22,851 nucleotides of DNA from a virus, in IMG/VR virus record IMGVR_UViG_3300005253_000083, positions 461 to 23,311 of that record. The stretch is one strand, 5' to 3'. Made by a program: the position numbers and the translations under genes. Each line of letters begins with the position of its first letter. The stretch's first letter is position 1. This document shows, piece by piece, positions 6,026 through 12,595 of this stretch. The notes under the pieces were generated by a model. The model worked only from the letters and a program-made list of their open reading frames with translations. It searched no databases and had not been told where the DNA came from.

Positions 6026-6283
6026 ATGGCAAATAATCACCGATCAGACAACCTGCCCGACACCAGAGGCATCTTATCAGGCCGTAGTAAACTCTCAGAA
6101 GAAGAGGTACTGGAGATTCGCCTCTTGTATGAGGTTGGGTCGTACACTCAACGTCAGCTTGCCCGTCTCTATGGTGTAACCCAAAAAATGATATGGGCCA
6201 TTGTCAACAAAAGAGCATGGGCACACCTGTGGGACGATTATGTTGAACCTGCGTGGCATTCGAGAAAGAAGGGGGCTGTATGA
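6026..6283 (+). CDS. Helix-turn-helix DNA-binding protein (85 aa)
   Basis: AAGGAG at the upstream stop (TAAGGAG, 6011-6017) serves this ATG. Residues ~22-66 (SKLSEEEVLEIRLLYEVG, TQRQLARLYGVTQKMIWAIV, NKRAW) form the HTH seen in small phage proteins and in domains attached to HNH endonucleases: a 'K-L-S/T-E-E' helix, 'Y-T-Q-R-Q-L-A' helix and a recognition helix after 'GVTQ'. No nuclease domain follows, so this is a stand-alone DNA-binding protein. The spacer before it (TAAGGAG-CCCT-TATAATG) nearly repeats the one before the previous gene. The stop overlaps the next start (ATGA). Confidence 0.75.
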   Translation: MANNHRSDNLPDTRGILSGRSKLSEEEVLEIRLLYEVGSYTQRQLARLYGVTQKMIWAIVNKRAWAHLWDDYVEPAWHSRKKGAV

Positions 6284-6390
6284 GAAAACCACAACGACGA
6301 CGCCCAAGGCGATCAAAGTGGGCCGCAAGCCGGGGCCACACAGAAGAGCGACCAGATACACCCTCCAAACGATCCTATCGGAGAGTATGA
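6280..6390 (+). CDS. Arg-rich micro-protein translationally coupled to primase (36 aa)
   Basis: An ORF that exactly fills the gap between the HTH gene and the primase gene. Its ATG overlaps the upstream stop (ATGA, 6280-6283) and its TGA overlaps the primase start (ATGA, 6387-6390). The peptide is very basic (opens MRKPQRRRPRRSK) with a second polar, charged half ending RSYRRV. The double ATGA overlap is strong evidence for real translation or at least for ribosome hand-off to the primase. It could bind nucleic acid or be a leader peptide; neither is shown. Confidence 0.5.
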   Translation: MRKPQRRRPRRSKWAASRGHTEERPDTPSKRSYRRV

Positions 6391-8306
6391 TGATAACTAA
6401 AGCATCGAAACAAGAAATAGCCGCCTGGCAGAGGAAATACATCACCCATCCCAGCGTTCCGCACCCATTGGCAGTGGTTCTGGAAGTAGCCGGGGAACAC
6501 AAGAAGCTCGGGGAATACGAGTATAAGGTCATTTGCCCGTGTCACACCGATACAAAACCCAGTCTGTGCCTCAAATACGATGTGAAGACCAAGAATGTCT
6601 TCGCCAACTGCTTTGTCTGCAAAGGTACTGGTATGAGCCAGATCGACCTCTGGAGCGGTTGTCTGAAGGCGTGGGGCCTAACCCTCGATGATCTCATAGA
6701 GGTATCCCCCAGGCACGAGGTCGCGGCGTATCCGTATTTTGACAAAGACGGGAATCTCCTTTATCACAAAGTCCGATATGAACCCAAAGACTTCCGGTAT
6801 CGTCTACCAAATGGTCACCTGGGCCTCAACGGTCAGACCAAGACGCTGTATGCCCTACCAGGGCTCCTCACAGACCCGTTAACCACGGCATACATTGTCG
6901 AGGGTGAGAAAGACGTTGATACACTCACAGCCCGTGGCCGGGTAGCAACGACTGCTGGTGGGCTTAATGACTGGCGTTCCGAGTTCAACCAATACTTTAC
7001 GAACCGTGATGTGGTGATTATCGCAGACAACCACCCGGATGGTCGTGCGTGTGCCGACAACACAGCGGCTGAGTTGTGGCCCGTAGCAGCCAGTGTGAAG
7101 GTCGTAACCCTTCTCGACAAGGATAAGGGCGATACTACCGATTTCTTCGATCAAGGCGGCACTGAGGAGCAGTTCGACCGGATCACAGCCGAGTCACCCA
7201 CATTGACTGAGGCTCCGAAAGTGGTGAAGGTGAAACCAAGCAAAAATAAACAGGTTATTCTTGAGAGGATCAGCGACATGGAACACAAAGAAATACATTG
7301 GCTTTGGCCAAATAGGATACCATCTGGAACATATTCCCTGTTGGTTGGAAACCAGGATGTTGGTAAATCTGTGTTATCCTTGTCTATGGCTGCTGTAGTG
7401 TCTACTGGTGGGTCGTGGCCGGATGCTCCCGACGAAGTGGTTGAGCGGGGGTCTGTAATCATCATGTCAACCGAAGATGATGTCGCCCGGACTATAAAAC
7501 CCAGGTTGCTCGCGGCAGGGGCGGATTGTAGCAAGGTTGTTTACATTAGTTCCTTCACGGAACAGGTAAAAGGTGAGACGGAAACACGGAACCTATTCAA
7601 TTTAACGACAGACCTTGATGTATTGGTTGACGCCATAGACCAATTGGGTGATGTCCGTTTGGTTATTATTGACCCGGTCACAGCATTTGCTGGAGGTAAG
7701 AAAGAGAACTCGAACGCGGAAGTCCGGGCTTATTTGAACCCCCTGATAGCACTTGCAGAGGAGAAAAACCTAACCATCGTGGGGTTGAACCACCTGAACA
7801 AGGACGAAACCAAAGGTGCAACCCACCGCACCCTCGGTTCGGTCGCGTGGACATCTGCGGCACGAGCCGTGTGGCTGGTGGGGTTTGACCCTCAAAATAA
7901 GGATGACGACGAACGTAGACTGTTCTTACCGATCAAAAACAACCTCTCCAAGGTCCGAACTGGGTTGGCATTCACGCTGGTTAACACCCAAGTTTTGATA
8001 AATGGGAATCAACACGGACACCCCGCATGTAAATTTGAGTCGGGTGCGGTCGAAATGTCGGCGGATGATGCGTTGGACACAGAAGGTCGAAAAAGATCGG
8101 CAAAGAAAGTCGATGAGGCTGTCGAATGGCTGGAAGAATTTTTGGAGAATGGACCCCAGATGTCTGTAGATATTTTCGAGGCTGGGAAGCAGAATAGCCT
8201 GTCTAAATACGCCATAACACGCGCCAAAATAAAACTGAGCATAAAACCGATCCAATTCCGGGAATTAGGCAAAATCATCGGTTGGCAATGGGCATTATCA
8301 GCCTAA
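6387..8306 (+). CDS. DNA primase-helicase (CHC2-like zinc site, Toprim, RepA/AAA_25-type ATPase)
   Basis: 639 residues from the ATG at 6387, preferred over the in-frame ATG at 6201 because it has GGAGAG just upstream, shares an ATGA overlap with the preceding ORF and avoids overlap with the HTH gene. Domains in order: zinc site ~50-79 (C50, H53, C75, C78, CPCH...CFVC); Toprim ~168-245 with VEGEKD (171-176) and ADNHPDG; ATPase with Walker A GNQDVGKS (321-328), a STEDD segment (361-365), Walker B VRLVIIDP (~423-430) and GLNHLNK (~466-472); a C-terminal winged-helix-like segment ~560-639. It would prime and unwind phage DNA. It is the only replication enzyme in the window. Confidence 0.9.
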   Translation: MMITKASKQEIAAWQRKYITHPSVPHPLAVVLEVAGEHKKLGEYEYKVICPCHTDTKPSLCLKYDVKTKNVFANCFVCKGTGMSQIDLWSGCLKAWGLTLDDLIEVSPRHEVAAYPYFDKDGNLLYHKVRYEPKDFRYRLPNGHLGLNGQTKTLYALPGLLTDPLTTAYIVEGEKDVDTLTARGRVATTAGGLNDWRSEFNQYFTNRDVVIIADNHPDGRACADNTAAELWPVAASVKVVTLLDKDKGDTTDFFDQGGTEEQFDRITAESPTLTEAPKVVKVKPSKNKQVILERISDMEHKEIHWLWPNRIPSGTYSLLVGNQDVGKSVLSLSMAAVVSTGGSWPDAPDEVVERGSVIIMSTEDDVARTIKPRLLAAGADCSKVVYISSFTEQVKGETETRNLFNLTTDLDVLVDAIDQLGDVRLVIIDPVTAFAGGKKENSNAEVRAYLNPLIALAEEKNLTIVGLNHLNKDETKGATHRTLGSVAWTSAARAVWLVGFDPQNKDDDERRLFLPIKNNLSKVRTGLAFTLVNTQVLINGNQHGHPACKFESGAVEMSADDALDTEGRKRSAKKVDEAVEWLEEFLENGPQMSVDIFEAGKQNSLSKYAITRAKIKLSIKPIQFRELGKIIGWQWALSA

Positions 8307-8307
8307 A

Positions 8308-8453
8308 AATCAACAATCACGACAATCACCCTATACATAGAATGAGAGTTTGTTGATTTCTTGACTTCTTGATTATTTAAGCCAAAAATCAAGAAGTCAA
8401 GAAATCAAGAAAGCTACTTTATATGTATGGGGTACACTGCGTGATTGTTGGTT
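8308..8453 (+). repeat. 146-nt nested palindrome with one centre (structured RNA or origin candidate)
   Basis: The element begins two bases after the primase stop. All arms share one centre between 8380 and 8381. Perfect 22-bp inner arms are 8353-8374 and 8387-8408 around a 12-nt loop; a second arm pair is 8328-8339 with 8422-8433 (11 Watson-Crick plus one G-T); an outer perfect 11-bp pair is 8311-8321 with 8440-8450. The inner arm is itself built of octamers TTGATTTC and TTGACTTC. Mismatched positions lie between arms as internal loops. The three wobble pairs (8310/8451, 8332/8429, 8346/8415) pair only when the + strand is RNA, favouring a transcribed structure. No T-run follows, so it is not an ordinary terminator. 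Confidence 0.85.
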
Positions 8454-8521
8454 ATTGAGTCAAAAACAAGGGTTCACTCCAAAAACACGAAAAACACGAA
8501 ATAGAGGGTAAGAGGGACAAA
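8454..8521 (+). other. Leader of the sigma-like gene
   Basis: Short A-rich stretch between the palindrome and the next gene. It contains a direct duplication of AAAAACACGA (about 8481-8499) and ends with a purine-rich ribosome site (GAGGGA, about 8511-8516). No promoter is clear. Confidence 0.35.
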
Positions 8522-8923
8522 ATGATCCAACATATTCGATATATCAGTAAACTCCAAGAGCAAATATACCGCGCCTGTCACCATGAACATAAGGGCATGA
8601 GTGTGGAAGAAGCCTCAGATGTTTATGCAATTCCTGAGCCAACGATAGAGCGGATATTAGCCGAGGTGGAAGACATCGCACCTCAATTGTTCCCGATTCT
8701 CTCGGCAAGCGACTGGGGCCTCTGGCAGGGATGGCTCAGGGGTGATACTGTCAAGGCCCTCACATTAAGGGGATCGTGCAGTGAGCGGACTGTTAGCCGT
8801 CGTATCGCGGACGTTAAGAAACAGTTGAACTATGCCAGAACACCCACAAGAGTTCGGTCCTTGAACAGCTTGGAACCATACGCCTGTGATCGGATTTTAG
8901 CGTTTAGAGAAGACGGAGAGTAA
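8522..8923 (+). CDS. Sigma-70-region-4-like / HTH regulatory protein (133 aa)
   Basis: Two helix-turn-helix-like stretches are visible: residues ~20-50 (GMSVEEASDVYAIPEPTIER, then ILAEVE) and ~70-98 (WLRGDTVKALTLRG, SERTVSRRIADVKKQL). The second is a clear 'recognition helix after a turn' pattern. The spacing and acidic/hydrophobic composition resemble small sigma-factor or RinA/ArpU-type phage late activators. It is the last gene before an intrinsic terminator and the packaging operon, the place where late-gene activators commonly sit. An activator role for the terminase-head-tail operon is therefore a reasonable inference, not shown directly. Confidence 0.65.
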   Translation: MIQHIRYISKLQEQIYRACHHEHKGMSVEEASDVYAIPEPTIERILAEVEDIAPQLFPILSASDWGLWQGWLRGDTVKALTLRGSCSERTVSRRIADVKKQLNYARTPTRVRSLNSLEPYACDRILAFREDGE

Positions 8924-9060
8924 ATCGAGGATAACCGATAATAGGGATTACAGTGGTTGTAGAGATTATGAACCTACCCCAAATAAAAATAAAAAAATAA
9001 TAGTGCCTTTAATACCATAAAACACTGATTCATGTCCTAATTCTGGTTATATCTGTTACG

Positions 9061-9106
9061 AAGGTGTCGTATATCCCTAAGATAGGGAGGGCGACACCTT
9101 TTTTAT
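9061..9106 (+). terminator. Intrinsic transcription terminator ending the replication/regulation block
   Basis: AAGGTGTCG at 9061-9069 pairs perfectly with CGACACCTT at 9092-9100, enclosing a second stem TCCCTA/TAGGGA (9074-9079 with 9083-9088), and is followed directly by TTTTATTTG. The hairpin plus U-tract on the + strand is a classic rho-independent form. It separates the sigma-like gene from the packaging genes, implying a separate late promoter just downstream (9107-9159). No strong sigma70 pair is visible there, consistent with use of a phage activator. The flanking 8924-9060 is A/T-rich with no gene. Confidence 0.8.
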
Positions 9107-9159
9107 TTGTGTCGGTTATAGTGGTTGTATGGAGAAATCAGGTAATACTGATTTTGCAG

Positions 9160-9513
9160 ATGGACGGTGGAAAATTCAAACCTGGACCAGATACACGTAG
9201 AAACACCAAGGGCCGACCGGCTTGTGGAAGGTCTAAGGCCCTGGCTCTGGTTGACGTGATCTGTAAGAAGCCTAAGAACCTTATGACACTGAAAGAAGCC
9301 CTCCAAGTCCACTTCGATAAAGACCCTGTTACGTTTTTCCAGACTATCATCGTGCCTCTCACACCCAAGGAATCGTACAACGCTATGGCAGCTAAGTCTA
9401 GTGAATGGGCAACTAAGACTCCTATGGAGATTGCTAAAGATATGACAGCACGTACAATAGGAGAGCTTCCGGGTCCAAGCGAGCCAGAGCCTACAGGGGA
9501 GTTAGATGGTTAA
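9160..9513 (+). CDS. DUF5681-like protein, candidate small terminase subunit (117 aa)
   Basis: The start at ATG 9160 is chosen because any upstream start in this frame would run into the terminator hairpin at 9061-9100; its ribosome site is weak, so the exact start is uncertain. The N-terminus (GGKFKPGPDTRRNTKGRP) matches the 'FKPGxSGNPKGRP' opening of DUF5681 proteins, which commonly sit next to phage terminases. The rest is helical with KEALQVHFDKDP and a Pro/Glu-rich tail. It overlaps the large terminase start by 8 nt. A DNA-recognition role in packaging is inferred from family context and position. Confidence 0.7.
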   Translation: MDGGKFKPGPDTRRNTKGRPACGRSKALALVDVICKKPKNLMTLKEALQVHFDKDPVTFFQTIIVPLTPKESYNAMAAKSSEWATKTPMEIAKDMTARTIGELPGPSEPEPTGELDG

Positions 9514-11294: not shown

Positions 11295-12595
11295 ACGTAA
11301 ACGAAAGATCGAACGCGAAGTTTCAGGAAAGCAAACTATTTCCTACAGCTTCGGTGACGGTCTTCTGGCTCGGCCAGCGTATGCTGCCTCTGGCACACTC
11401 GCCCAGTTGCGACTCGTCCGAAAGGACCCAACAGTTTCTAGTACGGTCTCGTGGGCTCGGAGATGTGTATAAGAGACAGGCTCGCCGCTTGTTGGTGAGT
11501 TCAATCCAGGCGGGGTCGTGGAACATCGAGGCTGACGAGGGCGTACCGGAGGAAATTGTTGAGTATATGGAGCATGTTCTTCCATTGCGGGATTGGCTTG
11601 TTTACAACAGTGTGGCGTTTGGACAAGTGGATTATGGTTGGCAGGGGTTTGAGAAGATATTCAAAGTGCGTGAAGACGGTAGGTTAGTTATTGACAAATT
11701 GAAACCGTTGCTTCACGACATAACAACCATTTTGGTTACACCGAAGGGTATGTTTGACGGCTATCGGCAGAGGCCGCTTTCCGGGGACAAGGTTGACGTG
11801 CCTGCTCGGAAGTGTCTGCATACAGCCTTTGAGGTAGAAGCAGGGAACTTATATGGGGTCCCTCTGCTTGAACACGTAAGAGCCACGATGGATTCATGGA
11901 CAGAGTGCAACGACGGGGCGAAAAGATATGATACAAAACTGGCCGGGTCTCATTGGGTTGTTTACTATCCCCCTGGAACCAGCATCATAGACGATGTGAG
12001 TACGGATAATGGGGAAGTGGCCGCGTTGGTTCTGGCTGCTATGGAAAGTAGCGGCAGTGCCGCGATCCCCACAACTTCGGCAACTGTTCTACAAGAAATT
12101 CTCAATCAATCTATTGCCGATCTGTATGCCTGGAAAGTGGAGTTGATTTCGGAGCAGAAGGGCAAGCAGTCCAGTTTTAATGATCGGTTGAATTATCTCG
12201 ACAAACAAAAGGTCCGAGGTTTGGGCCTGCCCGAGCGAGCTATTCTTGAGGGTAACTTCGGTACAAAAGCCGAATCTGAAATACAAGGCAATTGGGCCAC
12301 TCTTAATCTGGAAGCTACTGATCGAAATATAGCTACAATGTTCAATGTGCAGGTAACTGACCAACTTGTTGAGTTGAACTTCGGGCCTAAAAATGTGGGT
12401 AAGGTGAGGGTAGTCGCCTTGCCGTTGGTTGATGTCCAAGTGACCTTCCTGCGAAAAGTTTATGAAACGTTGTCCGATCAAAATCTTGATGTTGAAGTTC
12501 TTCGCAATCGGCTTGATTTGCCTACAAAGGAAGGCGGAAACCTCACACCAAAACCAGAATCCAATAAATCAGCGGAGGAAAACGATGAAGAGTAA
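11275..12595 (+). CDS. Portal protein (DUF935-like), frame broken by embedded sequencing adapter
   Basis: The portal forms the dodecameric DNA gate of the capsid. It starts at ATG 11275 (GAGAGG upstream; MAKQTHKRKRK) and runs to residue 55 at 11439. Bases 11440-11479 are adapter. The frame resumes at 11480 (ARRLLVSSIQAGSWNIEAD) and continues to the stop at 12593-12595. Without those 40 bases the frame is continuous and gives 426 residues, a normal portal size, with LRLVRKDPTVSARRLL reading smoothly across the join as in DUF935/Mu gp29-like portals. Later blocks include QVDYGWQGFEKIFKV and VPLLEHVRATMDSW. The exact bases lost or duplicated at the join cannot be known from this sequence. Confidence 0.8.
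11438..11479 (+). other. Embedded Illumina Nextera i7-side adapter (assembly artefact)
   Basis: 11446-11460 is GTCTCGTGGGCTCGG and 11461-11479 is the 19-base Tn5 mosaic end AGATGTGTATAAGAGACAG; together they are the Nextera read-2 transposase adapter, 34 of 34 bases. Directly before it, 11438-11445 is CTAGTACG, the i7 index bases of Nextera N702. The order index-adapter-genome is that of a library molecule end, so the genomic fragment begins at 11480. Left of the index the P7 sequence is missing and genomic portal sequence stands instead, so the assembler bridged two fragments. This is not phage DNA. Confidence 0.97.

Follow-up and report, generated by a model that had tools for sequence, protein, structure and literature searches.

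The crenarchaeal plasmid pRN1 has a 100-nt stem-loop downstream of its primase-helicase-winged-helix gene, and this element is required for replication (PMC4234260). The stem-loop remains functional after relocation, differs in sequence from one relative to the next and has no iteron structure; in Bordetella phage BIP-1 a similar hairpin after the gene is a proposed origin (PMC4234260). In SaPI islands and in SCCmec, the helicases Rep and Cch2 each recognise repeats that come right behind the gene encoding them, and in SCCmec it is the direct repeats, not the inverted repeats, that are needed for binding (PMC7581432). The oriV of RSF1010 combines iterons with stem-loops (ssiA/ssiB) and involves RepA, RepB' and RepC (PMC4234260). 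Among phage proteins, P4 alpha binds repeats at its origin.

The DNA considered here (the window) is a stretch of 22.9 kb from a 23.3-kb IMG/VR record of an uncultivated tailed phage, with capsid protein E family, Mu-type portal and terminase genes. To our knowledge, the origins of most uncultured phages are unknown. Where might this one start to replicate? The initial annotation pointed to a nested palindrome directly after the primase-helicase gene and offered four possible roles for it. Our analysis suggests that the phage probably starts replication at the palindrome and that the product of the adjacent upstream gene recognises it.

The primase-helicase gene and its palindrome

The features on which the argument turns are the following (strand is given where one applies).

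6201..8306, + strand: primase-helicase gene, a 701-aa ORF with an AAA_25 (RepA-type) helicase core
8082..8303, + strand: C-terminal winged-helix domain (AlphaFold2 model), proposed repeat reader
8305..8456: whole palindrome, proposed replication origin (mirror scores, RNA fold, shuffles)
8308..8321: outer left arm, pairing with 8440-8453 over 14 positions, one G-T (mirror alignment)
8328..8339: middle left arm, pairing with 8422-8433 over 12 positions, one G-T (mirror alignment)
8353..8374: inner left arm, TTGATTTC-TTGACTTC-TTGATT octamer repeats (perfect 22-bp inverted repeat)
8377..8390, + strand: central element TTAAGCCAAAAATC, comprising the loop and the right inner arm as far as its fourth base (identical to L003 40-53)
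8387..8408: inner right arm, inverted octamers (perfect inverted repeat with 8353-8374)
8422..8433: middle right arm (mirror alignment)
8440..8453: outer right arm (mirror alignment)

What kind of protein is encoded next to the palindrome? The ORF matches Pfam AAA_25 (8.8e-34) and the PHROG primase/helicase family (3.8e-33); two further matches, to Zn_ribbon_DnaG (0.0012) and Toprim_3 (0.0025), are collinear, weak and below the curated cut-offs. The top Foldseek matches of the helicase model are 1olo/1nlf, RSF1010 RepA (E 3e-11), a protein that is also reached by sequence profile (1g8y, E 2e-4). The C-terminal domain is modelled with a pLDDT of 90.7 as helix-helix-helix-strand-strand, and Foldseek places it next to winged-helix proteins (PadR/LmrR/MarR, Rpa2 WH) with a best E of 0.08 and a probability of 0.97. 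Helicase and primase-like regions share the one ORF, and the early ORFs examined include no other recognisable replication gene and no separate repB/repC-like gene.

The palindrome is real and strongly non-random. Around the single centre proposed by the initial annotation, 8380.5, 56 of 76 mirror pairs are Watson-Crick (3 G-T, 4 A-C, 13 other); the second-best independent centre in the window reaches 37, and when the window is shuffled 20 times the top centre scores 34-38. These values come from mirror alignment, used instead of stem counts by sliding-window folding, which flagged hairpins everywhere. The core arms lie within 8308-8453, as first described, and the palindrome reaches slightly further, to 152 nt, beginning at the stop codon of the primase-helicase gene (8304-8306). 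The arm pairs had been put at 11, 12 and 22 bp: the inner pair is indeed a perfect 22-bp inverted repeat and the middle one has 12 positions with one G-T, whereas the outer one measures 14. The RNA fold of 8300-8460, a check proposed at the outset, has an energy of -73.5 kcal/mol (z -13.9), equalled by 0 of 200 shuffles. TTGAYTTC octamers build the inner arms, with two copies per arm and just two more in the rest of the window, and the left arm has three copies of TTTCTTGA (0/100 shuffles). It had also been claimed that wobble pairs exist for the + strand only. This holds for the three arm pairs, where two G-T pairs against no A-C are the whole basis, and fails over the whole span, where A-C and G-T are about equal in number; the better-folding strand, moreover, varies among relatives.

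Could such a structure be an artefact? An assembly error or fold-back chimera is unlikely: the arms are only about 77% complementary overall, so that roughly one position in four is mismatched, and an independent metagenome contains a hairpin whose loop is the same (L003, below). A protelomerase target site was considered and dropped, the centre itself being non-palindromic. In searches for the palindrome elsewhere, blastn of the region against phages gave no DNA similarity, and the exact 22-nt inner arm, suggested as a possible repeat in other genomes, occurs once in the searched IMG/VR records, within an unrelated gene. GC skew, another suggested check, gave no origin signal. TTGAYTTC was also considered as a phage-wide iteron and rejected, octamers in three copies being rare, scattered (3 viral contigs, an Agrobacterium plasmid repeat, a coding repeat in L083) and non-homologous. 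Two Agrobacterium vitis plasmids carry this same octamer repeat, of the AATCAAGAAGTCAAGAAA type, in many copies (L086:3001-3027, L087:3001-3027), apparently unrelated to the phage palindrome.

Some other features of the record deserve mention. A Nextera sequencing adapter (GTCTCGTGGGCTCGGAGATGTGTATAAGAGACAG) lies in the portal gene at 11446-11479, 3 kb from the palindrome, and is a library or assembly artefact; similarity to the portal proteins of relatives sets in immediately after the adapter, and before it, in another frame, lies a portal-like N-terminal part. Paralogous tail-fibre-like genes occupy both contig ends (1-792 and 22279-22851, with stretches 72-79% identical), which may be why the assembly stopped there, and the record could be a close to complete, permuted genome. 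The ORF at 1091-2146 encodes a 20-codon repeat (YEFVATA...) in about six copies, 60 nt apart, at 1181-1512.

The centre conserved in a close relative

Scans with the terminase protein gave L003 along with more distant relatives. L003, whose terminase is 70% and capsid 86% identical to those of the window, is the closest relative reaching the palindrome site and the sole close relative to cover it. The presence of the palindrome in close relatives had been set as a check, and L003 does start with a hairpin, the centre of which, TTAAGCCAAAAATC, matches the window in 14 of 14 bases. In both sequences the hairpin lies about 1.1 kb upstream of terL, and the genes in between have no convincing similarity. 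What of the arms? Aligned on the loop, they are identical at 8/38 and 10/40 positions, which is chance. The inner 9-bp stem of L003 is clearly non-random (6/2000 arm shuffles reach it); its outer stem (138/500 shuffles) is explicable by C-rich and G-rich arms, and the z of the whole fold is -3.2. A conserved centre between unconserved arms suggests a recognised site between complementary arms rather than an inherited repeat. A miniature inverted element, another of the roles first offered, fits poorly with this pattern: the palindrome is present in a single copy in the record, and it is the loop rather than the arms that is conserved, in a syntenic place.

The loop motif was dismissed as a general element, being common to the window and L003 only. 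A scan with the 14-mer gave at least 119 stretches, and in the 120 sites examined a strong stem leaving the 14-mer in its loop was found, among the matches listed, in the window and L003 only. At other helicase loci the motif does not exceed shuffles; the exception is L277, where the match is interrupted (uncorrected p about 0.007). A possible TATTTCGCT motif common to L256, L258 and L003, seen by eye, is a lead. In a terminase relative (L208:1695-2112, 62%), a small HTH_36 protein apparently takes the place of the replication gene, and its gene is directly followed, at the corresponding place of the genome, by a palindromic array of ATCGATGACCCC repeats.

Palindromes after AAA_25 helicase genes

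Is the palindrome a property of this phage or of the gene that precedes it? The full-length primase-helicase, used as a first query, found no viral relatives, and an alignment of distant helicases gave 27 viral loci. In many of these, the strongest palindrome anywhere in the locus comes immediately behind the helicase stop (L256/L257, L264, L277, L259, L265, L272, L273, L275, L276, L279): it spans 154 nt in L256/L257, where the helicase is 45% identical, 151 nt in L264 and 214 nt in L277. Taking the stops of every ORF of at least 150 codons as controls, palindromes of at least 30 bits follow 17 of 30 helicase stops and 27 of 270 other stops before clustering (p = 1e-8). With one locus per cluster at 55% identity, palindromes of at least 35 bits are found in 13/24 lineages compared with 14/234 control stops (Fisher p = 1e-8), and in 12/23 lineages when the window is left out (p = 5e-8); the 35-bit threshold was picked after seeing the data, and the result also holds at 30, 45 and 55 bits. 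The control stops are unmatched for intergenic length and operon ends; since terminators are to be expected at operon ends, they may account for part of the excess. In 7 of the 24 lineages there is little or no palindrome after the helicase.

Plasmids and L291 were added after the idea had formed and constitute a partly independent check. In the Corynebacterium glutamicum plasmid pCG2 (L294:2374-2633) an AAA ATPase gene is followed by a 260-nt palindrome rich in ACATAC/GTATGT repeats, a likely origin in a host amenable to laboratory work, and in the Streptomyces NEAU-sy36 plasmid the helicase gene is followed by one of 231 nt; both plasmids lack phage genes of the window's kind. Shorter palindromes follow the helicase gene in S. 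chartreusis (52 nt) and in a TnpW element of Campylobacter, Subdoligranulum and Pusillibacter (72 nt). It is the helicase gene, not the phage, that predicts the palindrome.

The arms are unrelated between lineages. They contain direct repeats in the window, L259, L277, L291 and pCG2, and the arm repeat test is not significant at several other loci. L258 has no single long palindrome and carries TTGGCGGT five times (2/100 shuffles); its helicase belongs to the same cluster as that of L256, and downstream of both helicases (L256, 5055-5230; L258, 5110-5350) lies a common TTGGCGGTCTT, while the palindrome architecture differs. Which strand folds better varies by locus, and hence DNA rather than RNA seems to be the selected object.

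Could the palindrome simply end a transcript? That it terminates transcription or acts at the 3' end of the mRNA (stability, RNase III), ending or protecting the primase-helicase transcript before the late genes, is unlikely, though this reading leads the alternatives. An intergenic gap does follow the primase-helicase gene, at whose stop codon the palindrome sits, its RNA fold is strong, and in several relatives the palindrome is short, compact and G+C-rich, much like a terminator (L263, L278, L297); some of these short ones may be terminators. However, no terminator-like site was found in 8200-9200, in agreement with the initial annotation, which had seen no U-tract: there is no T-tract, the loop is an A+T-rich 12 nt and the whole is 152 nt long. 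Neither strand is consistently better folded among relatives, direct repeats in the arms would be needless for a terminator, and a conserved loop between unrelated arms would not be expected.

Somewhat less probable again is an operator, at which a regulator (the HTH protein of 8522-8923 or the primase-helicase itself) would bind the repeats and control downstream genes without any origin being involved. Inverted repeats are typical of operators, the ORF that follows the palindrome at 8522-8923 is HTH-like (a weak HTH_23 match), and weak promoter-like matches overlap the inner arms, although shuffles give as many. Against this, replicons with a palindrome behind the helicase gene vary in what comes next, which makes the upstream gene the constant partner, and the downstream gene of L003 is unrelated. 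It is very improbable that the palindrome, with the terminase genes nearby, serves packaging (pac/cos) or recombination: the spacing to terL common to the window and L003, despite the unrelated genes between, speaks for it, but palindromes of this type also follow the helicase in plasmids and mobile elements with no terminase nearby, and most terminase relatives have no such palindrome upstream of terL. The poorest candidate is a functional non-coding RNA from the + strand, which has a very stable fold and a loop identical in L003, yet Rfam gave no match at curated thresholds over the whole window (below them, both strands match generic hairpins of the microRNA kind) and relatives have no consistent strand preference, so that the structured RNA or RNase III site first suggested gains no support. 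Among the four roles offered by the initial annotation, an origin with repeated initiator sites is the one that the comparative evidence supports.

Proposed mechanism and comparison with described origins

How would an origin of this kind work? We infer binding by the predicted reader, and origin activity of the palindrome, from its structure, its position after this type of gene in unrelated replicons, the lineage-specific arms together with the identical L003 loop, and the predicted folds. The C-terminal winged helix of the zinc finger-TOPRIM-RepA-type primase-helicase would bind the arm octamers directly downstream of its own gene. As the repeats face each other, two assemblies would be placed, one on each side of the A+T-rich centre. 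The centre TTAAGCCAAAAATC would then be opened, either into a bubble or by extrusion of a hairpin with the centre in its loop, the helicase would load there, the TOPRIM primase would start at the centre and host proteins would take over after priming. Since the SCCmec inverted repeats are dispensable for binding, the repeats, not the hairpin, may be the functional core, and the hairpin itself may be secondary to them.

A wider reading is conceivable and is offered tentatively: zinc-finger/TOPRIM-RepA-type-winged-helix genes of phages, plasmids and mobile elements, each followed by private inverted repeats that fold around an A+T-rich centre, might form a widespread class in which arms and reader co-diversify and set replicon specificity, while the centre, as start site, is conserved within a lineage. 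No description of a class of origins after RepA-type primase-helicases was found in the literature searched (open-access papers). Should AAA_25 primase-helicase genes as a rule be followed by a stem-loop or an array of inverted repeats, the sequence of a phage, plasmid or mobile element would suffice to locate both origin and reader, and the pRN1 type of stem-loop origin would extend to an unrelated enzyme class. The prediction is that the winged-helix tail reads the repeats beside its own gene.

Most likely, the locus is of a known type, a stem-loop/iteron origin after the initiator gene, and the variant with a RepA-type primase-helicase is new. As in pRN1 and BIP-1, a large stem-loop (at least 100 nt) lies directly downstream of a primase-helicase-winged-helix gene, in the window starting at the stop codon. 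The likeness to pRN1 extends to a stem whose sequence varies while the structure is kept (between the window and L003 the arms differ and the inner stem is retained) and, judging from the model, to a C-terminal winged helix on the replication protein. The enzymes are different, pRN1 and BIP-1 having an archaeo-eukaryotic primase with an SF3 helicase and the window a DnaG-like TOPRIM primase, by weak matches, with a RecA/RepA-type AAA_25 helicase, and unlike pRN1 the window has octamer repeats in its arms. These repeats recall SaPI Rep and SCCmec Cch2: direct repeats come immediately after the helicase gene (in the window, three copies of TTTCTTGA; also in L258, L259, L277, L291 and pCG2), the helicase is proposed to read short repeats behind its own gene and, as in SCCmec, inverted repeats are present at the site. 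Rep and Cch2 are, however, other helicase types. Phage P4 alpha likewise unites TOPRIM primase, helicase and winged helix in one protein (PMC4234260); the helicase core of the window differs in being of the RepA/AAA_25 type by fold, and descriptions of the P4 origin do not present it as a single long palindrome immediately behind the gene. RSF1010 (IncQ) has the RepA-fold replicative helicase that is the top structural match of the model, and repeats plus a stem-loop occur at its origin as at the one proposed here. Its ssi hairpins are short, unlike the palindrome of the window, and separate repA, repB and repC genes are absent from the early ORFs examined. In RSF1010 iteron binding, unwinding and priming are split over three proteins, whereas the one protein of the window appears to combine them.
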